64,000 bases of DNA, taken from the NCBI RefSeq assembly GCF_008017455.1, contig NZ_VRTY01000004.1, forward strand, positions 1 through 64,000, read 5' to 3'. A program made the position numbers and the translations under genes. How positions within the stretch are numbered: position 1 is the first letter of the stretch; every line of letters starts with the position of its first letter. Source of the DNA: Pontibacter qinzhouensis. Lineage in GTDB: Bacteria; Bacteroidota; Bacteroidia; Cytophagales; Hymenobacteraceae. Positions 30,948 to 44,534 of the stretch are shown piece after piece. The notes beneath the pieces are model-generated. The model was not told the origin of the DNA and did no database searches. It saw only the letters and a program-made list of their open reading frames with translations.

Positions 30948-32279
30948 TTATATGTATCGGTTGATCAGGTTTTCGAGGTACTCTTGTTTGCCGCTGCGCG
31001 TCTCCGGCTCACCGTGCTCTATGGCATAGGCCCGCAGATCTTCCAGGCTCAGTTTACCTTCCTCAAATGCTTTGCCTTTACCGCTGTCGAAAGAGGCGTA
31101 TCGCTCTTCTCTTATTTTCTTATAATCTGATTTCTGCAGAATATTATCGGCTGTTACAAGTGCTCTTGCAAAGGCATCGGCACCACCAATGTGCGCGTAG
31201 AACAGGTCGGCAGGGTCGGTGGAGTTTCTTCTGATTTTGGCATCGAAATTAATACCGCCTCCTTTAAAGCCACCAGCCTGCAAAATTATCAGCATCGCCT
31301 CTGTAAGTTCGTTTATGTTTACCGGGAACTGGTCGGTATCCCAGCCGTTCTGATAGTCACCACGGTTGGCATCTATAGAACCTAACAAGCCAGCATCTAC
31401 AGCTACCTGCAGCTCGTGCTCAAAGGTATGGCCGGCCAGGGTGGCATGGTTCACTTCCAGGTTCAGGCTGAAATCGTTGAGCAGGTCGTGCTGGCGCAGG
31501 AAACCAATTACTGTTTCCGCATCAAAATCATATTGGTGCTTCGATGGCTCGGCTGGTTTCGGCTCAATAAAGAACTGGCCTTTAAACCCTTGCTTGCGGG
31601 CATAGTCTTTGGCCGCGTGCAGGAACTGGGCAAAGTGCTCTTTCTCGCGTTTCATGTTGGTGTTGAGCAGGGTCATGTAACCTTCTCTTCCTCCCCAGAA
31701 CACGTAGTTCTCGCCATTTAAGGCAATAGTCGCATCAAGGGCAGCTTTTACCTGGGCTGCACCATGCGCCAGCACATGAAAATCTGGGTTTGTAGAAGCT
31801 CCGTTCATGTACCTGCTGTGCGAGAACAGGTTGGCTGTGCCCCATAAAAGCTTCATGCCGCTTTCTTTTTGCTTCTGTTGCGCGTACTCCACCAGGGTCT
31901 GCAGCCGGCGCTCGTTCTCTACCACATCATTGCCGTAATCCACCACATCCACATCATGGAAACAGTAGTATGGCATGTTGATTTTGGTCATAAACTCAAA
32001 AGCGGCATCCATCTTGTCTTTCGCTCTTTCTACAGCATCCGATTTTTCATCCCATGGGAAAACATGCGTAGCGCCGCCAAAAGGGTCGGAGCCGTTGCCG
32101 TTAAATGAGTGCCAGTAAGCTACTGCAAAGCGCAGGTGCTCTTTCATGGTTTTGCCTGCTACCACGCGGTTCTCGTCGTACCAGCGGTAAGCCAGCGGAT
32201 TATCAGACTCAAGGCCTTCGAACTGAATCTGGCCAATTCCTTTAAAAAACTCTTTGTCGCCTAAAACTATGTTTGCCAT
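30948..32279 (-). CDS. xylA: Xylose isomerase
   Basis: XylA converts D-xylose to D-xylulose in the cytosol, using divalent metal. The 443 residues match the class II enzyme in length. Catalytic and metal motifs are visible: CFHDVDVV (about 104-111), [34 protein letters not shown] and [16 protein letters not shown], followed by [20 protein letters not shown]. It lies 33 bp downstream of xylB in the same direction and is closed by a terminator, so xylB-xylA is a two-gene operon controlled from the divergent LacI-type region. No xylose transporter is present here. Confidence 0.97.
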
Positions 32280-32312
32280 GTTGTTTTGTGTTTTCTACTG
32301 TTGATGTGATAA

Positions 32313-33797
32313 TTAAATTCTGGTTAGTTTATCTTGCAGAAGCGTTTTCCACTCCTGGTATACCGGCTCGTATTGTGCGGCCGTCTGGGGTTCTATTAAC
32401 TGCAAAGGGTGTGTGTTACTGAAAGCTTCGTCGCCGGAGGCATAGGTTTTTGCCCCAATTCCTGCACCCAAAGCTGCGCCAACGCTACCATCGCTTGGGT
32501 ATAGCTCCACCGGCACGTTGGTGGCATTAACAAACGCTTCGGTAAACAGCGGGCTTAAAAACATATTAGCTCTGCCTGCCCTGATAACCGTAGGATTCAT
32601 GCCGTTTTCGCGCATAATATCGAGGCCATACCGGAAGGCAAATGCAATGCCTTCCTGCACCGCCCTGAAAATGTGCGGCTGCGTGTGCTTGTAAAGGTCG
32701 ATGTTCTCGAAATGAGCACCTATTATTTTGTTGTTGAGCATGCGCTCTGCACCGTTGCCAAAAGGCAGCACCCGCAGCCCATCGCTGCCGATAGCCACCT
32801 GGCTGCCGAGGCTGTTCATGTCGGCGTAGCTGATGCTGGAACCGATCATATCTTTTGTCCAGCGGTTCAGAATGCCGGTGCCGTTAATGCATAGCAGCAC
32901 CCCTACCCGCTTCTCATGGCTGGCATAGTTAACGTGCGCAAATGTGTTTACCCGCGACTGCGGATCATATACCAGTTGGTCGCTTACGCCATAAATTACG
33001 CCTGATGTTCCTGCCGTGGCAGCGACTTCGCCTGGTTTCAGCACGTTTAACGAAAGCGCGTTGTTCGGCTGATCACCTGATTTATACGTTACCGGAATTC
33101 CTTCTGAAAGGCCTAAAGTTGCCGCGATCTCACGCTTCAGCTGCCCATGCTCCGAAAACACTGGTTTGATCTCCGGAATCAGCGCCTTGTCGAAGCCAAA
33201 GTACCCGAGCACATCTTCCGAGAGCTGGTCCTCCTGAAAATCCCAGAAAACTCCTTCCGAAAGCGCAGAAATACTGGTAGTGATCTCGCCTGTGAGTTTC
33301 ATGGAAATAAAATCGCCGGGAAGCATGGCTTTATATATCTGCTCGTATTTTTCAGGTTCGTTTTGCTTTACCCAGGCCAATTTAGATGCCGTGAAGTTTC
33401 CTGGCGAGTTGAGCAGGTGCGCCAGGCTTCGCTCTTCGCCGATGGCTTGCAGGGCTCCCTCGCCTATGGCCACAGCCCGGCTGTCGCACCAGATAATGGA
33501 ATCGCGGATTACACGCTGCTCCCGGTCTACCACTACCAGTCCGTGCATTTGGTAGGCAATGCCAATGGAGCCTATGTCTGCAGGATTAAACCCGGCGTTT
33601 GCATTCACTTTTTTTATGGCGGCCTGCACATGCTCCCACCACATATCGGGCGACTGCTCTGCCCACCCCGCCTGGTGCGCGATAATGCCTGACTCTACTT
33701 CAGGATATTGTGCCGAAGCCACACACTGCTGGGTGGCAGCATCTACTACCGACACTTTAATGGACGAAGTGCCAACATCTATTCCTAATAGGAGCAT
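32313..33797 (-). CDS. xylB: Xylulokinase
   Basis: XylB phosphorylates D-xylulose with ATP to xylulose 5-phosphate, feeding the pentose phosphate pathway. The 494-residue protein starts MLLLGIDVGTSSIKVSVVDA, the phosphate-binding motif of the FGGY carbohydrate kinases. It has YQMHGLVVVD (about 108), LPGDFISMKLTGEI and the ATP-binding region TAGTSGVIYG. The C-terminal FGGY segment is GAALGAGIGAKTY. It is the first gene of xylBA, and the 30-bp palindromic operator lies about 75 bp upstream of its start. Confidence 0.96.
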   Translation of the reverse strand: MLLLGIDVGTSSIKVSVVDAATQQCVASAQYPEVESGIIAHQAGWAEQSPDMWWEHVQAAIKKVNANAGFNPADIGSIGIAYQMHGLVVVDREQRVIRDSIIWCDSRAVAIGEGALQAIGEERSLAHLLNSPGNFTASKLAWVKQNEPEKYEQIYKAMLPGDFISMKLTGEITTSISALSEGVFWDFQEDQLSEDVLGYFGFDKALIPEIKPVFSEHGQLKREIAATLGLSEGIPVTYKSGDQPNNALSLNVLKPGEVAATAGTSGVIYGVSDQLVYDPQSRVNTFAHVNYASHEKRVGVLLCINGTGILNRWTKDMIGSSISYADMNSLGSQVAIGSDGLRVLPFGNGAERMLNNKIIGAHFENIDLYKHTQPHIFRAVQEGIAFAFRYGLDIMRENGMNPTVIRAGRANMFLSPLFTEAFVNATNVPVELYPSDGSVGAALGAGIGAKTYASGDEAFSNTHPLQLIEPQTAAQYEPVYQEWKTLLQDKLTRI

Positions 33798-33872
33798 ATT
33801 TTACGAATTTTTAACAGCTTAAATCAACCCATACTTTAGCAGGTTTATAACACTTTCCTGGGCTAATGCGCA

Positions 33873-33902
33873 TAAGTTTATGCCAACGTTGGCATAAACT
33901 TA
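33873..33902. promoter_or_regulatory. 30-bp perfect palindromic operator between xylB and the lacI-type gene
   Basis: The 30 bases are a perfect palindrome centred on the CG of TATGCCAACGTTGGCATA (33879-33896). A central CG with symmetric arms is the hallmark of LacI/GalR family operators. It lies between the divergent xylB and lacI-type genes, so it should govern both. A degenerate relative occurs upstream of galM (44662-44677). Confidence 0.9.
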
Positions 33903-33996
33903 AAAGAAAGTTTTGAAATCCAAAAATTTATCTGCAATTATGTTTAAATTATTTTTCTTTAACGATTAAACATGTAGAAGAAAGGCAACCTTCATC

Positions 33997-34004
33997 TACC
34001 TTTG
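33997..34004 (+). promoter_or_regulatory. Bacteroidota-type -7 box for the lacI-type gene
   Basis: TACCTTTG matches TAnnTTTG and lies 35 bp before the GTG start at 34039. The -33 box is not obvious. The operator palindrome ends about 95 bp upstream. Confidence 0.6.
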
Positions 34005-34038
34005 TAAAAGCGCCATAGCATAACCAAAAAGACAAAAA

Positions 34039-35055
34039 GTGCAGAAAGTAACCATCCATGATATTGCCCGCGAACTGAACATAACCTTTTCTACGGTGGC
34101 AAGAGCCCTAAACGACCACCCCGCCATTAGTGTAACCACCAAAGAGGCTGTGCGCGAAACTGCTAAACGACTCGGGTACCGGCAAAATAAAGTAGCCTCC
34201 TCCTTACGCTCCGGTCGCACCAATATTATAGGCGTGGTGGTGCCGAGCCTCGATGTCTCCTTCTTCAGCTCCGTAGTACACGGTATTGAGCGCGTTATGC
34301 ATGAGAATGGCTACAGTATCCTGCTCTACCAGTCTAACGAATCGCTGAAGCAGGAAACGAAAGGAATTGCCACTTTTCTGGCATCGCGGGTAGATGGTAT
34401 TATTGCCTCTGTAACGGCAGAAACTTTTCAGTACGAGCACTACACTGAAATAAAGAAACGGAATGTGCCCTTGCTCTTTTTCGACCGGACATTAGATGAA
34501 CTCCAGGTGCCATCCGTTACGATCAACGACTATAAAGGAGGGTTTATGGCCACAGAGCACCTGATCCGGAAAGGCTATAAACGCATTGTGCACATCTCTT
34601 CGGAGCGGAACCTGCCTATTTTTAGCGAACGGCTACGCGGCTACACTGATGCCCTGGCGTATTACGATCTGCCTTTTGATGAGAACCTGGTTTTCAGGGG
34701 AAACATATCGATGGAATATGGAAAGACCTGTGTGGATGCGCTACTGGAAAAGCAGGTACAGTTCGATGCCATTTTTGCACTCGAAGATTATATGGCCATG
34801 GGTGCCATACACCAGCTATTAGCGCATGGCATTACGGTACCCGACCAGGTGGGCGTTATTGGGTTTGCAAACGAAGCTTTTGGAGCCTACATCACTCCTA
34901 CCCTCTCAACTATAGATCAGCAAACCGTGAAAATGGGCGAGGAAGTAGCTAATTTATTTCTGAAGCTGTCAAAAAACAAAAAGTTTTATGAAGCAGAACC
35001 GGAACGTGTGGTGCTGGAACCTTTGCTCATGATCAGGCAATCTACAGCCAGGTAA
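34039..35055 (+). CDS. LacI/GalR family transcriptional regulator of the xylose genes
   Basis: The 338-residue protein has an N-terminal LacI helix-turn-helix and hinge, VTIHDIARELNITFSTVARA (about 4-23), followed by GYRQNKVASSLRSGRTNIIG, then a periplasmic-binding-protein-like effector domain with IIGVVVPSLDVSFFSSVVHG, FFDRTLDELQVPSV, GRGY-like IRKGYKRIVHI and IGFANEAFGAYITPTLSTID. The start codon is GTG at 34039, set by the family N-terminus. It is divergent from xylBA with a perfect palindromic operator in between, so it most likely represses (or controls) xylBA in response to xylose or a derivative. A similar site upstream of galM raises the possibility of wider sugar control. Confidence 0.93.
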   Translation: MQKVTIHDIARELNITFSTVARALNDHPAISVTTKEAVRETAKRLGYRQNKVASSLRSGRTNIIGVVVPSLDVSFFSSVVHGIERVMHENGYSILLYQSNESLKQETKGIATFLASRVDGIIASVTAETFQYEHYTEIKKRNVPLLFFDRTLDELQVPSVTINDYKGGFMATEHLIRKGYKRIVHISSERNLPIFSERLRGYTDALAYYDLPFDENLVFRGNISMEYGKTCVDALLEKQVQFDAIFALEDYMAMGAIHQLLAHGITVPDQVGVIGFANEAFGAYITPTLSTIDQQTVKMGEEVANLFLKLSKNKKFYEAEPERVVLEPLLMIRQSTAR

Positions 35056-36003: not shown

Positions 36004-36468
36004 TTAACAAATTACTACGGCTATACTTGCCTGCACACACACCGATAGCAAAAGTACCAAGCAGTAGTTAGCTTTATATTGTGCCAGCCAGTCGAGGGCG
36101 GCTCTTTTATCGGTAAACATGCGGCTCGGGTTTTTAGGTTTGTTAACGGCTATGTAAAAATTAGCCATCATACGGAGTACAGGAGAGGTAACCAGCAAGG
36201 CAGTGGCTGTAACCAGTTCGTTTCCTTCTTTTGCTATAAAATCGCGTGCTTCTTTGGTGGTGTTCCGGACTTTGGTGATGTCAAAAAAGCTGGGGTATGC
36301 TGTGCCTGCAATAAGTTCCAACCTATCCTGTACACATTTTTGTGCTATTTCAAGATTCAGTAGCTCAATTTTTTTAAAGTTGCATAGAAAAATGCCGTTA
36401 TCAATTGACATAACAATATAATCCGTTTCTTTGGACTTACTGTCGCTATTTTTGTCAATATTTGTCAT
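36004..36468 (-). CDS. SpoIIAA/STAS-like small protein
   Basis: The 154-residue protein resembles a family of small STAS/SpoIIAA-like proteins common in Bacteroidota. The core IAGTAYPSFFDITKVRNTTK followed by EARDFIAKEGNELVTATALL, then RMMANFYIAVNKPKNPSRMF and TDKRAALDWLAQYK, is the conserved pattern. The C-terminal 20 residues (NYCLVLLLSVCVQASIAVVI) are hydrophobic and unusual for the family; they could be a tail anchor or a frame extension past the normal stop. Such proteins may bind lipid or act as regulatory switches. It is divergent from the synthase fusion gene with 63 bp between starts, so the two may be co-regulated. Confidence 0.7.
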   Translation of the reverse strand: MTNIDKNSDSKSKETDYIVMSIDNGIFLCNFKKIELLNLEIAQKCVQDRLELIAGTAYPSFFDITKVRNTTKEARDFIAKEGNELVTATALLVTSPVLRMMANFYIAVNKPKNPSRMFTDKRAALDWLAQYKANYCLVLLLSVCVQASIAVVIC

Positions 36469-36531
36469 AAGTTTTGAATTAATCTGACCCCGCGGTGTTA
36501 CACTAGTAACCTAAGCAAATGTACTAATTAT

Positions 36532-38970
36532 ATGGCTAAAATCAGGCATAACAATATGCTCGATACAGTTGACTCTGTACTAAACGTTTCAAAGAAAAAA
36601 GGCATCATTCACCTTCATGCCGAAGACGAAACCCTTAATGGAAAAACCCTCACCTTAAACGGCCGGCAGGTTCTGCACTTTGGAACCTGCGGATATCTGG
36701 GGCTGGAGCACCACCCGGAAATAAAGAAAGGCGCCATAGATGCCATAGAACGCTTTGGCACACAATTCCCGATGTCCAGAACCTACATCTCTAATCCATT
36801 ATACAGAGAATTAGAAAATTTGATACAGGAAATGTACCATGCACCTGTTGTTATTTCTAAAAATTGTACACTTTCTCATCTCACCACCATCCCTAGTATT
36901 ATCAGGCAGACGGACTTGGTTATACTTGACCACCAGGTGCATGCCAGCGTGCAGGAAGCGGTAAAGAAAATGCTGAGCCAGGGTATTACTGTGGAGATGA
37001 TCCGGCACAATAACCTGGAGATGCTGGAAGAACGCATAAAGAAGCAGCGAAGCAAGTTCGACAGAATCTGGTATATGGCTGATGGTGTGTATTCTATGTA
37101 CGGAGATTTTGCACCTATCAAAGAAATGATAGCCTTAGCAGAAAAGTACGAGCAATTGCACTTATACGTAGACGATGCCCATGGCATGAGCTGGGCAGGC
37201 CAACATGGCACCGGTTATGTAATGAGCCAGATGGAAGGCGGACTCTACCGAAAAATGATTCTGACCGCGAACCTTGGCAAAGGCTTTGGGGCCTGCGGAG
37301 GTCTGTCGCTGTTCCCGAACGAAGAATGGTACAACAAGGTCAATAACTTTGGTGGCCCGCTCACGTTTTCGGTTCAGATAGAGCCTGCGACCCTAGGCGC
37401 TGCCCTTGCCTCTGCCAAAATACACATGAGCGATGAACTCGTAGGTTACCAGCAGGAACTACAGGATAAGATTGCCTATTTCAACGAGTTACTAAAGCAG
37501 ACAAACCTGCCGCTTGTACACGAATGCAACAGCCCGATATTCTTTATCGGCACCGGCACCATGGACATGGGCAACCACCTGGTACAGCAATTGCTAAACG
37601 ATGGCATTTACGTTAACCTTGCTACTTTTCCAGCTGTACCCGCCAAAAACATCGGCATCCGGATTACCATATCGCGGAGCAACTCTTACGAAGACATAGC
37701 TGAGCTGGTGGCAAAGCTACAGTTGCATTTTAACGAAGCACTGGCTGAAACAAACCAGACGGTAGACAAAATAAGGAAGGCTTTTAAAATGGCCCCGCTG
37801 CCGGAAAGCCAATCGCAGGTGAAACTCGTATCGGATGGCACTTTACGCTTAAAAAGCTACAACTCCATAACCGAACTCAATGAAGCCACCTGGAACACCT
37901 ATCTGGGTAAAAATGCCTTGTTCGATTGGGCTGGACTTAAATTTTTAGAGAATTCCTTTACTGGCAATCATCAAAAAGAAAACAACTGGGATTTCAGGTA
38001 TTATGTAGTTGAGGGTCCGGAAGGCAATATCGTGCTCATGACCTTTGTAGTAATCGCGCTCCAGAAAGACGACATGTTCTCGGAAGCATCTATATCGAAA
38101 GCCATGGAAGAAGAGCGGTTGCTGAACCCCTATTACCTCACCTCCACCGGTATATTAATGGGCTCTCAGTTCACCGAAGGCAACCACATGTACCTCGACC
38201 GGCAAAGTCCTTACTGGAAAAGTGCACTGAAGGCACTGATAGCTGAACTGTATCAGGAACAGGAAAAGACAAACGCCAGTAACATTCTGCTTCGGGATTT
38301 AAATGCAACCGACCCCGAAATGGACGAGTTTATGGTAGAGCACGACTTCGTTAAAATTGACCTGCCGGAATCTTGTGTTGTTGAAAATCTGGACTGGAAA
38401 TCGGAACAGGAGTTCCTAAGCACACTTTCCAGGAAAAACCGGAAAAACTTTGTGCAGAAGGTTAAGCGGAACGAACCTTTTTATACCGTTGAAATCAAAA
38501 GTAAGCTCACGCCGGAGGAGCTTGCCTATACAATTGAGCTCTATAAAAATGTAAAAAACAATAACTTTGGCATCAATAACTTTGTTTACCCTGCAAATGT
38601 GTTCCAGCAGATGAACGAAGACAGTGCCTGGGAATTTGTAGTGCTATATTTAAAAGAGGAAATCACAGACAACAGACTACCTGTTTCTGTTTGCATGTGC
38701 CACCTCAACCACGACCAAATTTACAGCCCTGCCCTAATTGGTATGGATTACGCCTACCTGCTGGAGTACGGTGTTTACAGGCAGACCCTGTGGCAGGTAG
38801 TAAAACGAGCCAATGCACTTGAGTGTAGAAAAATTAATTTTGGCATCTCAGCTTCCATCGAAAAGAAGAAGTTTGGAGCCAAACTTTATCCAAAAGTAGG
38901 GTACTACCAAGCCAAAGATAATTTTACAATGGAAATGATGCAGGCCACCATTGCCATTGAACAAGAATAA
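36532..38970 (+). CDS. Alpha-oxoamine synthase / GNAT-type acyltransferase fusion
   Basis: The 812-residue protein joins two enzymes. Residues about 1-410 are a PLP-dependent alpha-oxoamine synthase (relatives: serine palmitoyltransferase, AONS, KBL). YVDDAHGMSWAGQHGTG holds the PLP-binding Asp/His (about 212-228), and the catalytic Lys is at about 250 in TANLGKGFGACGG. Residues about 430-805 look like a GNAT/FemAB-type acyltransferase region (RKNRKNFVQKVKRNEPFYTV, ECRKINFGISASIEKKKFGA). An oxoamine synthase condenses an amino acid with an acyl-CoA, and an attached acyltransferase could then N-acylate the product. This suggests synthesis of a sphingolipid- or sulfonolipid-like molecule, which is inference. 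It is a monocistronic gene; an inverted repeat follows it. Confidence 0.85.
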   Translation: MAKIRHNNMLDTVDSVLNVSKKKGIIHLHAEDETLNGKTLTLNGRQVLHFGTCGYLGLEHHPEIKKGAIDAIERFGTQFPMSRTYISNPLYRELENLIQEMYHAPVVISKNCTLSHLTTIPSIIRQTDLVILDHQVHASVQEAVKKMLSQGITVEMIRHNNLEMLEERIKKQRSKFDRIWYMADGVYSMYGDFAPIKEMIALAEKYEQLHLYVDDAHGMSWAGQHGTGYVMSQMEGGLYRKMILTANLGKGFGACGGLSLFPNEEWYNKVNNFGGPLTFSVQIEPATLGAALASAKIHMSDELVGYQQELQDKIAYFNELLKQTNLPLVHECNSPIFFIGTGTMDMGNHLVQQLLNDGIYVNLATFPAVPAKNIGIRITISRSNSYEDIAELVAKLQLHFNEALAETNQTVDKIRKAFKMAPLPESQSQVKLVSDGTLRLKSYNSITELNEATWNTYLGKNALFDWAGLKFLENSFTGNHQKENNWDFRYYVVEGPEGNIVLMTFVVIALQKDDMFSEASISKAMEEERLLNPYYLTSTGILMGSQFTEGNHMYLDRQSPYWKSALKALIAELYQEQEKTNASNILLRDLNATDPEMDEFMVEHDFVKIDLPESCVVENLDWKSEQEFLSTLSRKNRKNFVQKVKRNEPFYTVEIKSKLTPEELAYTIELYKNVKNNNFGINNFVYPANVFQQMNEDSAWEFVVLYLKEEITDNRLPVSVCMCHLNHDQIYSPALIGMDYAYLLEYGVYRQTLWQVVKRANALECRKINFGISASIEKKKFGAKLYPKVGYYQAKDNFTMEMMQATIAIEQE

Positions 38971-39177: not shown

Positions 39178-40866
39178 GTGAAAGTTCTGAAAGAAAGAAT
39201 AGAAGATATAATCTCGCTCATTGCAGAAGTAGCCAACGGAAACTTCGATTACCAGATAGAGGCGACTGAAACTGGTGATGAACTGGATGCCATTATTTCT
39301 GGGATAAGCATGCTGGGTCAGGAGCTGAAGAGCTCTACAGTTTCCCGCGACTTTATGCAAAGCATATACCAGGGTGTGGTGGACATGTTAGTTATATTAA
39401 ACCCGGATCTTACGGTACGCGCTGTAAACGAGGCCTTCGAGGAACTGCTGGACCTAAAGGAGGAAGAAGTGGCGGGCCAGCAATTAGCAGATTTGGTACA
39501 CCCTAACGATGCCCTTAGGTTACAGGCTGCCTACACCAAGTTTAAGGCAGAAGGCAAATGCCTGAACGTGGAATTGCTGCTGCAGCCCCGACACCGCCAA
39601 AACCCTTTGCCAGTTTCCTGCTCTTTTTCTTATCTAAAGAACAGCCAGAAGGAAATTGATGGCATCCTGATAATTGCCAAAGACATAACCGAAATTAAAC
39701 GAACGGAGCAGGAACTGAAAGAAGCCAAGAACAAAGCCGAAGCAGCGAACGAGGCCAAAAGCAATTTCCTGTCCAGCATGAGTCACGAGATCAGGACGCC
39801 ACTGAATGGGATAATGGGCTTTACCGACCTGCTCATGCAAACCGACCTGAACAAGTCTCAGAAACAGTACCTGAACCTGATAAAAACCTCCGGCTCCACC
39901 CTCACCAAGCTCCTCAGCGACATACTGGACCTGCACCGGATAGAGCAGGACAAAATATCGTTGGAGCTGATACCTTTCGACTTAAGAACTACTGCTTCAG
40001 CCAACCTGGAGCCCTACAAACACCTGGCGCAAGCTAAGAAAGTAGCTTTTAGCTACACATTTGATGAAGCCATTCCGGAAATCGTTATCGGAGATCCAAA
40101 CCGCATAAACCAGGTTCTCATAAACCTGGTGAGCAACGCCATAAAATTTACCGAAAACGGAGCCATTACCATTCATCACCGGGTAGATAAAATTGACCAG
40201 GAGAACCTGTTGCTCACCTGCACGGTAACCGATACCGGCGTAGGCATTCCGGCTGCCAAACAAGCTATAATTTTCGATTCCTTTACGCAGTCAGACCAAT
40301 CTACCTCGCGCCGTTACGGTGGTTTCGGACTCGGACTGACCATCAGTAAAAAGCTTGTTGCTATTCTGGATGGTGAGTTAGGAGTTGTTAGTCCACCGCC
40401 GGGGAAGCAGCAGGGCTCTTCTTTCTGGTTTACTGTGAAACTACAAGCAGCCAACAATCAGCCTGAAGATACTTCCGCTGACCTGGTGGAGCTGGACTTT
40501 AGACTAGAGAAGGAAAAGAAGATATTGGTGGTTGACGATAATGAAATAAATATCTTCCTGATGCAGGATATTCTGGAAAATTTTGGTGCTACCGTCACCA
40601 CGGCCCTAAGTGGCGAAGAAGCCATTACATTAGCGCATGACACACCCTTCGATATCATATTTATGGATATACAAATGCCGGATATTGATGGATTGGAAGC
40701 CACAGCCGAACTCCGGAAAGCAGGTTTTACAGGAACCATTATTGCCTTTTCGGCCAACGCTTATAAAGATGATATTTACAAAAGCCTGGCCGCCGGCATG
40801 AATGACCACCTCTGCAAACCATTCACCCAGGAAGATCTGATTGCCCTGTTAACCAAATGGGGCTGA
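39178..40866 (+). CDS. Hybrid histidine kinase with PAS, HisKA, HATPase and receiver domains
   Basis: The 562-residue protein is a soluble hybrid sensor kinase. A HAMP-like helix region (about 1-50) is followed by a PAS domain (about 58-175), HisKA with the phospho-acceptor His in SSMSHEIRTPLNGIMGFTDL (H at about 203), an HATPase domain with the N box NQVLINLVSNAIKFTENGAI and G boxes DTGVGIP and GGFGLGLTISKKL, and a receiver domain with the acceptor Asp in IIFMDIQMPDIDG. There is no membrane helix, so it senses a cytosolic signal or works with a partner. The start is GTG at 39178, after a long hairpin. No DNA-binding output lies beside it. Confidence 0.92.
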   Translation: MKVLKERIEDIISLIAEVANGNFDYQIEATETGDELDAIISGISMLGQELKSSTVSRDFMQSIYQGVVDMLVILNPDLTVRAVNEAFEELLDLKEEEVAGQQLADLVHPNDALRLQAAYTKFKAEGKCLNVELLLQPRHRQNPLPVSCSFSYLKNSQKEIDGILIIAKDITEIKRTEQELKEAKNKAEAANEAKSNFLSSMSHEIRTPLNGIMGFTDLLMQTDLNKSQKQYLNLIKTSGSTLTKLLSDILDLHRIEQDKISLELIPFDLRTTASANLEPYKHLAQAKKVAFSYTFDEAIPEIVIGDPNRINQVLINLVSNAIKFTENGAITIHHRVDKIDQENLLLTCTVTDTGVGIPAAKQAIIFDSFTQSDQSTSRRYGGFGLGLTISKKLVAILDGELGVVSPPPGKQQGSSFWFTVKLQAANNQPEDTSADLVELDFRLEKEKKILVVDDNEINIFLMQDILENFGATVTTALSGEEAITLAHDTPFDIIFMDIQMPDIDGLEATAELRKAGFTGTIIAFSANAYKDDIYKSLAAGMNDHLCKPFTQEDLIALLTKWG

Positions 40867-40953: not shown

Positions 40954-41979
40954 TTAAACCAGATTTCTTAATCTGTCTGCACTGGCTTCCGGGGTAATAT
41001 CGCGTTGCGGATCACCTAACATTTCGTAGCCTACCATAAATTTTTTAACGGAGGCAGACCGCAGCAGTGGCGGGTAAAAGTGCATGTGGAAATGCCAGCC
41101 TGTATGAGCCTGCCCATCCGTTGGGCTTTGATGTATACCAGCCGAATAAGGGAAAGAAATATTAAATACTCTGTCGTAGGCCATCGTCAACTTTTTAATG
41201 GCATCGGCAAAAGCATCTTTCTCGTTACTGTCCATCTGCGCGATGTGCTGAAAATGGCGCTTGCTGATGATGATAGTCTCGAAAGGCCAAACAGCCCAGA
41301 ATGGTACCAAAACTGCAAAATGCTCATTCTGATATACCACACGTTGCTTCTCCTCCAGTTCCAGCTGCACATAATCGAATAGTAAGCTCCGCCCATGCTC
41401 CTGAAAGTAAGCCTCCTGCTGCACCGTTTCTTTTGCCGGCTCACCTGGCACCGAACTCTGTGCCCAGATCTGGCCATGCGGGTGCGGATTACTACAGCCC
41501 ATTACCTGGCCTTTGTTTTCGAAAATCTGCACGTAATTAATAAAGTCGAGTTTGCCAAGCTCCAGGTACTGCTCCTCCCACAGATCCACTACCTTTCGGA
41601 TGTCAGCTACCTCCATATCGGGGAGGGTAAGGTCGTGGCGCGGCGAAAAACAGATAACCTTGCTAATGCCCCGTTCACTTTCTGCCTGCAGCAAACCTCC
41701 TTTAGAAAATGAGCCAGCTGGCGTATCGGCTTGCAAGGCTCCAAAATCGTTTTGAAAAATAAATGTTGCCTCGTAGGCCGGGTTCTGCTCACCGTTAACG
41801 CGCGTGTTGCCGGGGCACAGGTAGCAGGTGGGGTCGTATGCCGGTCTGGCCTCTTTCTCTACAGCCTCCTGCTGCCCTTGCCAGGGCCTTTTTGCCCGGT
41901 GCGGCGATACCAGCACCCATTCTCCTTTTAAAGGGTTGTAGCGCCGGTGTGGGTGCTCTTCTAAATCAAATGCACTCAT
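40954..41979 (-). CDS. galT: Galactose-1-phosphate uridylyltransferase
   Basis: GalT exchanges UMP between UDP-glucose and galactose 1-phosphate in the Leloir pathway. In the 341 residues the active-site His-Pro-His is seen in [15 protein letters not shown] (about 153-167), with the N-terminal [20 protein letters not shown], a metal-site Cys pair in [15 protein letters not shown], and the C-terminal [20 protein letters not shown]. It is the last gene of the galM-galK-galT group: 69 bp after galK, ending at a perfect hairpin. Confidence 0.96.
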
Positions 41980-42048
41980 ATAGTTATATTATTTATTGCC
42001 GCCTCTAAGCGACATACGTTCAGAAAATCAGGTAAAATAGCAACGCAG

Positions 42049-43197
42049 TTAAGAGATCTGGCTGCTGCCATCCACAATCTGGGCTACATATACTTTAGGT
42101 TCCCGCCCGAAATGTTCCTGGTAAGCCGTACTTGCCTGCTGGGTATACTCCTCTATTTTATTGGCGTGCACAATATTAATGGTGCAACCGCCAAAGCCAC
42201 CGCCCATCATGCGGGCTCCCAGAACAGCTTGGTTCTTGCGCGCCTGCTCTACCAGAAAATCAAGTTCGGGGCAACTTACCTCGTACTGGTGCTGCAAACC
42301 TTCGTGCGAGGCGTACATTTTTTCACCGAAGCCTTTCAGATTGCCCTGCGCCAGGTCCTGGCAAGCTTCTAATACTCTGTTATTCTCCTGCACCACATAC
42401 AGGCAACGTTTATAAGTAACCGGTTCAAATTCCTGCTCATGCTTCTCCAGCATCTCCACCGTTACGTCGCGGAGGCTGTTAACCTGGGGGTAGTGCTGCC
42501 GGAGCAAAGCTACGCCTGCCTCACATTCCTGCCGGCGGGTGTTGTATTCCGATGAGGCTAGCGAGTGCTTTACCTGCGTGTCGAGCAACACAATGCGGTA
42601 TTCGTCCAGGTCAGAGGTAAAGTATTCGTATTCCAATGAGCGACAATCCAGCTTCACGACATGCCCGCTTTTGCCGAACATGCTGGCGAACTGGTCCATG
42701 ATACCGCACATAACGCCAGCATATTCATGCTCGGCTTTCTGCGCCATCTTTACCAGATCAAATTTTTCTACTCCTAACCCATAGATCTGGTTTAACGCAA
42801 ACGCCAAGCCACACTCTACTGCCGCCGAAGAAGACAAGCCTGCTCCGATAGGAATATTGCCGCCAAACACCAGGTCGAAACCGGGAATGTGGTGACCAGC
42901 CTTCTGAAACTGCGCTACTACGCCCAGCAGGTAATTAGCCCAACCCAGCTGGCTTGGCTGCACCTCCGTCAGGTCGAAGGTGGCACTTTCGTCCATATCG
43001 TAGGAGTAGGCCCGGAAGGCTTGGGTGCCGTTGGGCGCTACCGCAAAGTAAATCTCTTTGTTGATGGCAGCCGGCAGTACAAAGCCTTCGTTATAATCGG
43101 TGTGCTCGCCTATCAGGTTTACGCGGCCCGGAGACCGGAACAATAAAGGCTCCTGCTGATACAGTGAAAAAAATTTGTCTTTAATTTGATCTATCAT
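42049..43197 (-). CDS. galK: Galactokinase
   Basis: GalK phosphorylates alpha-D-galactose with ATP, the entry to the Leloir pathway. The 382-residue GHMP kinase carries the galactokinase signature GRVNLIGEHTDYNEGFVLPA (about 24-43), the ATP loop IPIGAGLSSSAAVECGLAFA (about 115-134) and the C-terminal motif GARMMGGGFGGCTINIV. The catalytic Asp lies in CGIMDQFASMFGKSG. It is 69 bp upstream of galT. The 287-bp gap to galM upstream holds a dispersed element. Confidence 0.97.
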   Translation of the reverse strand: MIDQIKDKFFSLYQQEPLLFRSPGRVNLIGEHTDYNEGFVLPAAINKEIYFAVAPNGTQAFRAYSYDMDESATFDLTEVQPSQLGWANYLLGVVAQFQKAGHHIPGFDLVFGGNIPIGAGLSSSAAVECGLAFALNQIYGLGVEKFDLVKMAQKAEHEYAGVMCGIMDQFASMFGKSGHVVKLDCRSLEYEYFTSDLDEYRIVLLDTQVKHSLASSEYNTRRQECEAGVALLRQHYPQVNSLRDVTVEMLEKHEQEFEPVTYKRCLYVVQENNRVLEACQDLAQGNLKGFGEKMYASHEGLQHQYEVSCPELDFLVEQARKNQAVLGARMMGGGFGGCTINIVHANKIEEYTQQASTAYQEHFGREPKVYVAQIVDGSSQIS

Positions 43198-43270
43198 ATT
43201 GGTTGCTTTGAGAGCTGCCCGTTTTGCATTCGTTATAAATATACTTTTCAGGTTATGTATGGAGCCAGAC

Positions 43271-43327
43271 CAATTCTGCTAATGAAATTGGCCTTCCAAC
43301 GGAAATTTCACTATTTTTTGTCAAGGG
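43271..43327 (-). repeat. 57-nt dispersed element, copy 12, inside the gal gene group
   Basis: On the minus strand it starts CCCTTGACAAAAAATAG, has the core TCCGTTGGAAGGCC, and ends ATTTCATTAGCAGAATTG. It lies between galM and galK and accounts for part of an unusually wide gap. Confidence 0.82.
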
Positions 43328-43484
43328 TACAGCCTGTAAATATCGGCAAGCCTTAAGCCCTTTAACGCTAAAGCGGCTATTTAAGAGGTTAGGTACACGA
43401 CACATGCCGGTGAGAGTTTGCGGCATGGGCTGGCACATTATGTTCATAAAAGCGATACACTTTTGTTATGCACCCACCTACTGC

Positions 43485-44534
43485 TTAAGCACCTTTTTTT
43501 ACCGAAAATTTGTAAATGGTAGTGTGGTCATAGGTTTCGCCAGGTTGCAGAATAGCCGACGGAAACTCTTCGTGATTTGGAGCATCGGGGAAGTGCTGTG
43601 TTTCGAGGCAAAGCGCACACTGCTTAACAAATACTTTTCCGTGCTTGTCTTTTACGCTGCCATCGAGTGCATTGCCTGTATAAAACTGCACGCCGGGCAT
43701 GGTTGTAAATACTTCCATAAACCGCTTGCTTTCCGGGTCCAGTACTGAGGCCACGTATTTAATTGATCCATCGGCTTGTGGTACAATATAGTTGTGGTCG
43801 TAACCGCCAGGAACCTGCGCAATTCGCTCCCCTATCACATGCTGCTCCCTGAAGTCCATAGGAGTTCCTTCAACCTGCTGTACCTCACCGGTTGGCACTT
43901 GTGTATCATCCACGAGCGTATAGGCATCAGAAGCGATCTGCACCACATGGTCCAGAATCAACTCCGATTTGCCTGCGGTCAGGTTGAAGTAACTATGGTT
44001 GGTCAGGTTAACAGGCGTAGCTTTATCAGTTGTAGCCTGGTATCGTATGGTCAGTTCGTTATCGTCGGTCAGGCTGTAAGTAATGGTCGTTTCCAGATTG
44101 CCCGGATACCCTTCTTCGCCATCAGGGCTTGTATAGGTCAGCTTCAGGCCATTCAGGGCGGGCAGTTCTTCGGCCTGCCACACTTTTTTATCGAACCCAG
44201 ATAAGCCGCCGTGTATGTGGTTTGGAGCTTTGTTAGCGGCCAGTTCGTACTCCTGACCGTTAATAGAAAACCTGGCATTTTTAATGCGGTTGGCGAAACG
44301 CCCCACTACAGAGCCAAAGTAAGGCTGCTTCTGCAGGTATCCTTCCAGGTCCTCAAAACCCAGGGCTACCTCTCCTGCCTCACCGTTTTTATCGGGGGTA
44401 ACAATGGAGGTAATTATGGCGCCATAGTTTGTAATTTTCACTACCATACCTGCGGCGTTGGTTAACCTATAGAGGCTAACCTCCTGCCCACCAGGCAAGG
44501 TGCCAAAAGGCTCTTTTTTAATATCTGCTCTCAT
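43485..44534 (-). CDS. galM: Aldose 1-epimerase (mutarotase)
   Basis: GalM interconverts the alpha and beta anomers of galactose ahead of galactokinase. The 349-residue protein has VTPDKNGEAGEVALGFEDLE and GSVVGRFANRIKNARFSING near the N-terminus, the catalytic His in NHIHGGLSGFDKKVW and in NLTNHSYFNLTAG, and the general-base Glu/Gln region MPGVQFYTGNALDG. No signal peptide is seen, so it acts in the cytosol. It is the first gene of the gal group. A LacI-type operator-like site lies about 130 bp upstream (44662-44677). Confidence 0.95.
   Translation of the reverse strand: MRADIKKEPFGTLPGGQEVSLYRLTNAAGMVVKITNYGAIITSIVTPDKNGEAGEVALGFEDLEGYLQKQPYFGSVVGRFANRIKNARFSINGQEYELAANKAPNHIHGGLSGFDKKVWQAEELPALNGLKLTYTSPDGEEGYPGNLETTITYSLTDDNELTIRYQATTDKATPVNLTNHSYFNLTAGKSELILDHVVQIASDAYTLVDDTQVPTGEVQQVEGTPMDFREQHVIGERIAQVPGGYDHNYIVPQADGSIKYVASVLDPESKRFMEVFTTMPGVQFYTGNALDGSVKDKHGKVFVKQCALCLETQHFPDAPNHEEFPSAILQPGETYDHTTIYKFSVKKGA

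Follow-up and report, generated by a model that had tools for sequence, protein, structure and literature searches.

We analysed a 64,000-nucleotide stretch of the Pontibacter qinzhouensis genome (contig NZ_VRTY01000004.1, positions 1 to 64,000 of the forward strand; referred to below as the window), in which a single open reading frame (ORF) encodes an alpha-oxoamine synthase (AOS) fused to a FemAB-like tandem GNAT domain. The ORF lies between a divergent gene for a DUF7793 protein and a gene for a cytosolic sensor kinase, and these neighbours recur beside the fusion in other genomes, where one type of sensory input module is joined to several different outputs. The evidence for linkage of the cassette genes is strong, and the three genes very probably act together. 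Our data suggest that the fusion, DUF7793 and the sensor constitute a candidate signalling cassette, and that the product of the fusion is a signal and not one of the ordinary lipids of the membrane; our specific proposal, a three-part signalling cassette with the fusion as its synthase, is one that we hold with slightly less than even confidence. The features concerned are as follows.

36004..36468, minus strand: DUF7793 (PF25056) gene, SpoIIAA/STAS fold, divergent from the fusion (Pfam and AlphaFold2 model)
36469..36531, no strand: divergent intergenic region of 63 bp, presumed site of both promoters
36532-38970, plus strand: AOS-GNAT fusion, a single ATG-started ORF of 812 residues
36532..37770, plus strand: AOS half, residues 1-413, with the pyridoxal phosphate (PLP) enzyme residues H137, D214, H217, K250 and R377 kept, and Cys53
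37771..38970, plus strand: FemAB-like tandem GNAT half, residues 414-812, plus the stop codon (Pfam and structure model)
39178..40866, plus strand: cytosolic hybrid sensor with HAMP-like + PAS, HisKA, HATPase_c and receiver domains, GTG start (domain search)
39178..39738, plus strand: HAMP-like + PAS input module of the sensor, related to the modules of other cassette sensors whatever their output

The fusion, DUF7793 and sensor genes are linked across genomes

We ran profile searches over 291 genomes of the order (E<=1e-70) and over a phylum sample of 395 genomes (E<=1e-90). The order search returned 25 matches, with the fusion in 17 of the 291 genomes and the other eight matches AOS-only; the phylum sample returned nine, with the fusion in 8 of the 395 genomes (the P. 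qinzhouensis genome included, and one copy frameshifted) and one AOS-only gene. Surroundings were taken for all order and phylum loci other than G243, whose match was partial, and G019, which locus L006 already represents; the sampled loci, a set of named loci and the window together give 44 fusion loci. A divergent DUF7793 gene is found at the 5' side of the fusion in 40 of the 44, and a sensor-module gene lies within 5 kb of the fusion in 39 of the 44, counting as a fusion the frameshifted L115, which is under the length limit (39/43 and 38/43 without L115). At L059, on a short contig, only DUF7793 was seen. Both partners are present in six of the nine families that hold the fusion (f1, f5, f9, f15, f19 and f26; not f2, f14 or f16), and both neighbours accompany the fusion at each of the 20 loci from the same genus (L006-L025) and at each of the 16 named loci (L035-L050), two sets that probably share organisms.

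Genes outside the cassette differ between locus groups. The position of the sensor gene also depends on the lineage: it is downstream on the same strand, downstream on the opposite strand, or behind DUF7793. Because sensor placement varies in this way, the linkage has survived rearrangement, and a chance neighbourhood is ruled out by conservation over changed gene orders together with the phyletic co-occurrence described below.

Several loci differ in detail from this pattern. L097 has a single fusion with a pair of sensor-module genes and three DUF7793 genes around it, which looks like a merger of two cassettes. In the class-level loci L108-L115 (family f26), further genes flank the cassette: one of RteC type (c14, six members among the loci) and one with a MauE domain (c8, eight members). 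At L116:7652-10574 (G360), an AOS-only gene is followed directly, on the same strand, by a HisKA/HATPase_c kinase gene, with neither the sensor module of the cassette nor DUF7793. In the window, the cassette is flanked by xylose genes (30948-35055) and galactose genes (40954-44534), which from their sequences we take to be xylA, xylB, a LacI-type regulator, galT, galK and galM. This setting is common to L036 (P. beigongshangensis), and the short flank of L007 has the regulator; the other L035-L050 loci differ.

DUF7793 and the sensor co-occur with the synthase and are retained after its loss

Of 25 sampled members of the genus (G000-G024), 15 have DUF7793, as a single copy except for two copies in G019. 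The sensor module, for which a first pass gave 22-67 candidates per genome, is found at E<=1e-25 in the identical 15 genomes, once in each, and in 0 of the 10 others. The fusion occurs in 13 of the 25 genomes, all of them among the 15 with DUF7793 and the sensor (Fisher p = 2e-5 and 3e-7 for the co-occurrence in these 25 related genomes).

DUF7793 and the sensor are retained, with the synthase absent, in G011 and G013. G013 keeps remnants of the fusion (residues 2-60 and 769-811), with flanks that match those of Pontibacter chinhatensis (L045), and no recognisable synthase remnant was detected in G011 (best fusion match E 0.83). Because the neighbours differ between the two genomes, these look like separate losses of the synthase in two lineages. 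All domains of both sensors are intact. The G013 sensor branch carries 28 synonymous and 14 non-synonymous changes, with 41 sites ambiguous, giving a ratio of non-synonymous to synonymous change (pN/pS) of 0.15, as compared with 0.09 for the synthase-bearing L045; the corresponding DUF7793 values are 0.30 and 0.27, and those of G011 are 0.21 for the sensor and 0.25 for DUF7793. A receiver kept after loss of the synthase fits signalling better than it fits a regulator with the synthase as its sole target. Separately, the fusion at L115:8934-11361 (G379) is broken by a stop and a change of frame, with DUF7793 and an AraC-type sensor still open, and is perhaps a third synthase loss.

One input module is joined to several outputs

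Of the two neighbours of the fusion, the sensor kinase, which the first-pass annotation of this DNA had missed, is the more telling one. No transmembrane segment was detected in the sensor by hydropathy (highest 19-residue mean 1.11). The input module comprises the first ~185 residues; its HAMP match is below the Pfam cutoff in the window protein and above it in L136. Among the cassette loci, the module is joined to HisKA-HATPase-REC (window, L089 and L091), HisKA-HATPase (L094), PAS-HisKA_3 (L101) or an AraC helix-turn-helix (L108 and L114), or stands alone in proteins of 211-226 residues (c16, c27 and c53; 284 residues in L104). A profile of the kinase modules matched the AraC group at E 8e-25 to 1e-15, c27 at 1e-13 to 6e-8 and c16 at 9e-10 to 1e-5, and hhalign between module groups gave probabilities of 92-99.5%. 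The weakest link is the c53 pair, which is matched by the c16 profile that contains it and, for one of its two members, by the c27 profile (3e-7).

The divergent gene encodes a STAS-fold protein

A divergent SpoIIAA-like gene 63 bp from the fusion had been described on first inspection as possibly lipid-binding, a role that our results do not support, and we identify it as DUF7793 (139.8 bits; Pfam cutoff 26). Its AlphaFold2 model (pLDDT 87.6) has the SpoIIAA/STAS fold, matching the STAS domain structure 4xs5 with Z 12.9 and a root-mean-square deviation (rmsd) of 2.4 over 115 aligned residues, and it also matches the DUF3478 structure 2q3l (E 6.5e-7). An alignment of the region between the divergent genes from 17 loci showed no clear palindrome that could serve as a conserved operator.

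The window DUF7793 ends in a hydrophobic C-terminal tail of ~20 residues (36004-36072) and is 154 amino acids long; its counterparts are 128-137 amino acids in 15 of 16 named relatives and 153 in L036. This tail may contact a membrane or a partner, or it may have arisen by read-through once the usual stop was lost. DUF7793 is not an exclusive marker of the fusion: more distant DUF7793 genes occur in G019 (the second copy) and, outside the genus and with no fusion in the genome, in G045, G047 (two genes) and G050. None of these distant genes has a fusion or sensor gene among the listed neighbours, up to five per side, one G047 contig beginning one gene before its DUF7793.

The fusion ORF is conserved almost end to end

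Homologues of the fusion protein in other genomes are conserved over almost the full length at 36-76% identity, which excludes both a chance fusion and an assembly artefact. Its named relatives are 15 Pontibacter records and one from Botryobacter, at 69-76% identity. No fusion was found on plasmids at E<=1e-60; a plasmid search with the AOS half alone gave 213 records, every one under 60% identity. Profiles, structure matches and this conservation bear out the initial description of the ORF as a PLP-dependent AOS joined to a GNAT/FemAB-like domain. The catalytic lysine, predicted at about residue 250, is K250 within 'LGKGFG' and aligns to K236 of E. coli BioF.

The AOS half forms a clade apart from SPT, CapA, KBL and AONS

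Solved AOS crystal structures align to fusion residues ~36-391. K250, H137, D214, H217 and R377 of the fusion correspond in an alignment to BioF K236, H133, D204, H207 and R361, as expected of a member of the AOS superfamily; we take these BioF residues to be the PLP lysine, the stacking histidine, the Asp/His pair and the conserved arginine. The Pfam aminotransferase family PF00155 was reported for a 51% homologue and not for the window protein.

We judged the NCBIfam bit scores of the fusion protein against curated family cutoffs. The top-scoring AOS model was PRK07505 / NF005697, at 299.3 bits over residues 7-398 (301.9 bits by another search), under the cutoff of 342. Scores were also below cutoff for serine palmitoyltransferase (SPT; NF047600, 149.5 bits against 640; NF047599, 149 against 500; NF047603, 132.6 against 670), 8-amino-7-oxononanoate synthase (AONS; TIGR00858 (bioF), 172.4 against 426), 2-amino-3-ketobutyrate CoA ligase (KBL; TIGR01822, 130.6 against 493) and CqsA/LqsA (NF005526, 88.6 against 428). 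A CqsA search of the P. qinzhouensis genome placed the fusion last among five AOS genes.

We then aligned 58 AOS rows, with ten Pontibacter near-duplicates (L039-L048) omitted, and built a tree of 45 AOS domains after dropping 13 rows (near-duplicates, the broken L115, and L098 and L105, two fusions whose genes were called incompletely). The fusions form a clade with the AOS-only and rhizobial rows, apart from SPT, KBL, AONS and the cysteate C-acyltransferase CapA on a branch with support of 100/100, in a tree whose SPT rows are from Bacteroidota only, which has no rows for CqsA, 5-aminolevulinate synthase or proteobacterial SPT, and whose single CapA row (L004) and AONS rows have long branches; the tree tool flagged a meeting of long branches between the two main groups, and an unusual composition in three rows. 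The fusion label requires two changes on this tree, such as a single gain plus a single loss, and L106 is an AOS-only gene nested within the fusions, with DUF7793 and the sensor still present. The first-pass annotation had proposed the Bacteroidota route to sphingolipids or sulfonolipids, with phylogeny of the synthase domain as a check; the AOS half falls outside both SPT and cysteate acyltransferase, and this route is disfavoured. Nor does the AOS half group with KBL or AONS, the placement named there as counting against a lipid synthase.

The genome has separate genes for these other enzymes, which also disfavours that route. L002 is an SPT (673.8 bits, cutoff 640) and L003 a KBL (627.4 bits, cutoff 493). 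L004 is close to solved cysteate C-acyltransferases (544 bits to 28eh and 557 to 7u7h), its best NCBIfam model being SPT at 301 bits, below cutoff, and an AONS-type gene on contig C90, assigned by the tree only, groups with BioF (93/85). Among 37 genomes of the genus, the fusion is present in 21 and an SPT-like gene in 15, with no association between them (Fisher p = 0.50); only L002 and L029 of these SPT-like genes were verified against the SPT model.

At the column of BioF Asn47, KBL, SPT, CapA and AONS rows of the 58-row alignment have Asn, and nearly all fusion, AOS-only and rhizobial rows have Cys or Thr (Cys53 in the window protein). The exceptions are Tyr in the fusion L105, Gly in the rhizobial L145, and the fusion L098, which is without this segment. 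BioF Asn47 lies near the substrate carboxylate; since it is replaced, the fusion probably uses a different amino-acid substrate.

The rhizobial plasmid homologues of the AOS half share ~31-34% identity with it. Those at L143:5879-9194 (A. fabrum pAt) and L145:6995-10122 (R. acidisoli) adjoin response-regulator genes; the homologue on S. meliloti pEmeLPU88b has no adjoining response-regulator gene, and we give the rhizobial pattern little weight.

The GNAT half has a FemABX-type fold

The acyltransferase part matches PF13480 at 28 bits (cutoff 22) and FemAB_like PF04339 at 24.4 bits, below the cutoff of 27. An AlphaFold2 model of residues 414-812, made from 16 aligned sequences, has a tandem GNAT fold (pLDDT 82). 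Its structural matches include Sba18 (Z 21.5, rmsd 3.2, 273 aligned residues), FemX (Z 21.5, rmsd 4.5, 306 aligned), MprF (Z 17.8, rmsd 4.3, 270 aligned) and the N-myristoyltransferase 8fi4 (Z 16.6, rmsd 4.4, 294 aligned; Z 16-17 for N-myristoyltransferases overall), with sequence identity of only 7-15% in these alignments. To judge from the model, the fold is compatible with either an acyl or an aminoacyl donor. It is plausible, as first suggested for this protein, that a single chain carries out both the condensation and a subsequent N-acylation; the sphingolipid or sulfonolipid identity given to the product is not supported.

A proposed signalling cassette and its alternatives

In the mechanism that we propose, the AOS half would condense an amino acid with acyl-coenzyme A (acyl-CoA) or acyl-acyl carrier protein (acyl-ACP) to a long-chain alpha-amino-ketone and CO2, and the FemAB/GNAT half, being part of the same chain, would then add an acyl (or aminoacyl) group to the amine so formed. 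The resulting small lipid would be read in the cytoplasm by the HAMP-like + PAS module encoded alongside, with output in this genome through a histidine kinase with a receiver domain, and the DUF7793 STAS-fold protein may be an accessory regulator of the sensor or the synthase. That the synthase product is the ligand of the sensor we consider nearly, though not quite, an even bet. The broadest form of the proposal is possible but on the unlikely side: it is a Bacteroidota signalling family, as yet undescribed, in which the fused synthase's N-substituted amino-ketone lipid is read intracellularly by a HAMP-like + PAS receptor that different lineages have built into a kinase of the phosphorelay or HisKA_3 type or into an AraC-type transcription factor, or use as a stand-alone adaptor, the STAS-fold protein is the third fixed part, and synthase-less lineages with receptor and STAS protein eavesdrop on their neighbours. 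Among the papers returned by literature searches on this fusion, on oxoamine synthases with kinases and on those of Bacteroidetes, no title or abstract opening describes the cassette.

Several observations weigh against the signalling proposal. The product of the fusion is something that we infer, and the synteny could equally reflect a sensor that merely controls expression of the synthase. The linkage has exceptions: four fusion loci (L092, L093, L102 and L103) have neither partner within 5 kb, only one of nine AOS-only relatives (L106) has both, and G038, which is not of the genus, contains a match of the sensor type, next to two further receiver-domain genes, with neither DUF7793 nor the fusion. 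Because the 25 genus genomes are related, the Fisher values overstate independence. The branches used for pN/pS span time before the losses and are thus weak evidence of continued use, and the sensors kept after synthase loss may be recent leftovers, heading out too. The most distant modules (c16/c53 and those of the kinases) are only modestly alike, in a vast PAS superfamily, and the kinase-module profile also matches L050_2 (8e-29) and L098_14 (2e-6) in the fetched loci, such that the input module is not limited to the cassette. Finally, the cassette sensor is without a transmembrane part, unlike CqsS and LqsS.

The alternative to be taken most seriously, which we regard as a credible minority view, is that of a regulated lipid enzyme: the fusion would supply the membrane with an accessory lipid, either an N-acylated amino-ketone or a ceramide-like one, and the sensor and DUF7793 would do no more than control expression of the fusion according to some unrelated cue. 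A ceramide-like product would be in keeping with the AOS and GNAT domains, DUF7793 shares its fold with regulatory STAS proteins, and local regulators are commonly found beside the genes they control. However, two lineages kept the sensor and DUF7793 without the synthase, one input module serves several different output domains, dedicated SPT and CapA-like genes are present in the genome anyway, and the distribution of the fusion is patchy (the 17 of 291 order genomes given above). The nearest structural neighbours of the GNAT half (Sba18, FemX and MprF) are aminoacyl-tRNA-dependent transferases, which would suit a FemAB half that uses aminoacyl-tRNA, as FemX or MprF does, to add an amino acid to the AOS-made amine; we consider such an aminoacyl-lipid synthase improbable, since acyl-CoA enzymes such as 8fi4 share the fold, which does not fix the donor, and sequence identity in the alignments is low. 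The Bacteroidota origin, and the presence of an AOS and an N-acyltransferase-type domain on a single chain, had led to the proposal of a one-protein sphingolipid or sulfonolipid synthase. With the AOS half outside SPT and CapA in the tree, far below the NF047600 cutoff, and in a genome with dedicated SPT and CapA-like genes, and with no association with an SPT-like gene, this is very improbable.

To our knowledge, no endogenous small-molecule quorum-sensing synthase is established in Bacteroidota. If the fusion's product is the sensor's ligand, the phylum gains a testable one, with its receptor and accessory protein identified, and oxoamine-synthase signalling is widened past the CqsA/LqsA type to a fused enzyme paired with a PAS receptor in the cytosol. 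Should the product prove to be a structural lipid, a divergent AOS is still tied to DUF7793 and a specific sensor module, giving context to families without an assigned function.

Comparison with known systems

The best-scoring family for the fusion, PRK07505 / NF005697, is an uncharacterised AOS subfamily ('hypothetical protein') whose model (405 positions) covers an AOS alone, with no GNAT half. Bacterial SPT and cysteate C-acyltransferase (CapA/SulA) share the AOS superfamily and the PLP residues with the fusion; by contrast, the fusion lies in a separate clade with mostly Cys or Thr, not Asn, at the BioF Asn47 position. FemX/FemA, MprF and Sba18/Sbb17, which are FemABX-type tandem GNAT proteins, have the same overall fold as its C-terminal half, which differs from them in being joined to an AOS and in its low sequence identity.

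CqsA/CqsS, LqsA/LqsS and JqsA/JqsS, in which PLP-dependent AOS-type synthases are encoded beside sensor kinases, are presented as established signalling cassettes in two published accounts (PMC3376566, PMC3566124), and according to the first (PMC3376566) a quorum-sensing pair typically has its synthase and sensor genes side by side and retained as a single cassette. Like CqsA, the fusion adjoins a sensor histidine kinase gene (39178-40866), an arrangement kept in the genus, and, like CqsS as portrayed in those accounts, the window kinase is of the hybrid type and carries a receiver domain (PMC3376566, PMC3566124). The CqsS-type sensor has a six-helix membrane part, however, whereas the sensor here has a cytosolic HAMP-like + PAS module, and, in contrast to CqsA, LqsA and JqsA, the synthase is fused to a GNAT half, is accompanied by an extra STAS-fold gene and scores below the NF005526 cutoff. 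By its architecture, the cassette thus appears to be analogous to CqsA/CqsS rather than a member of that group.

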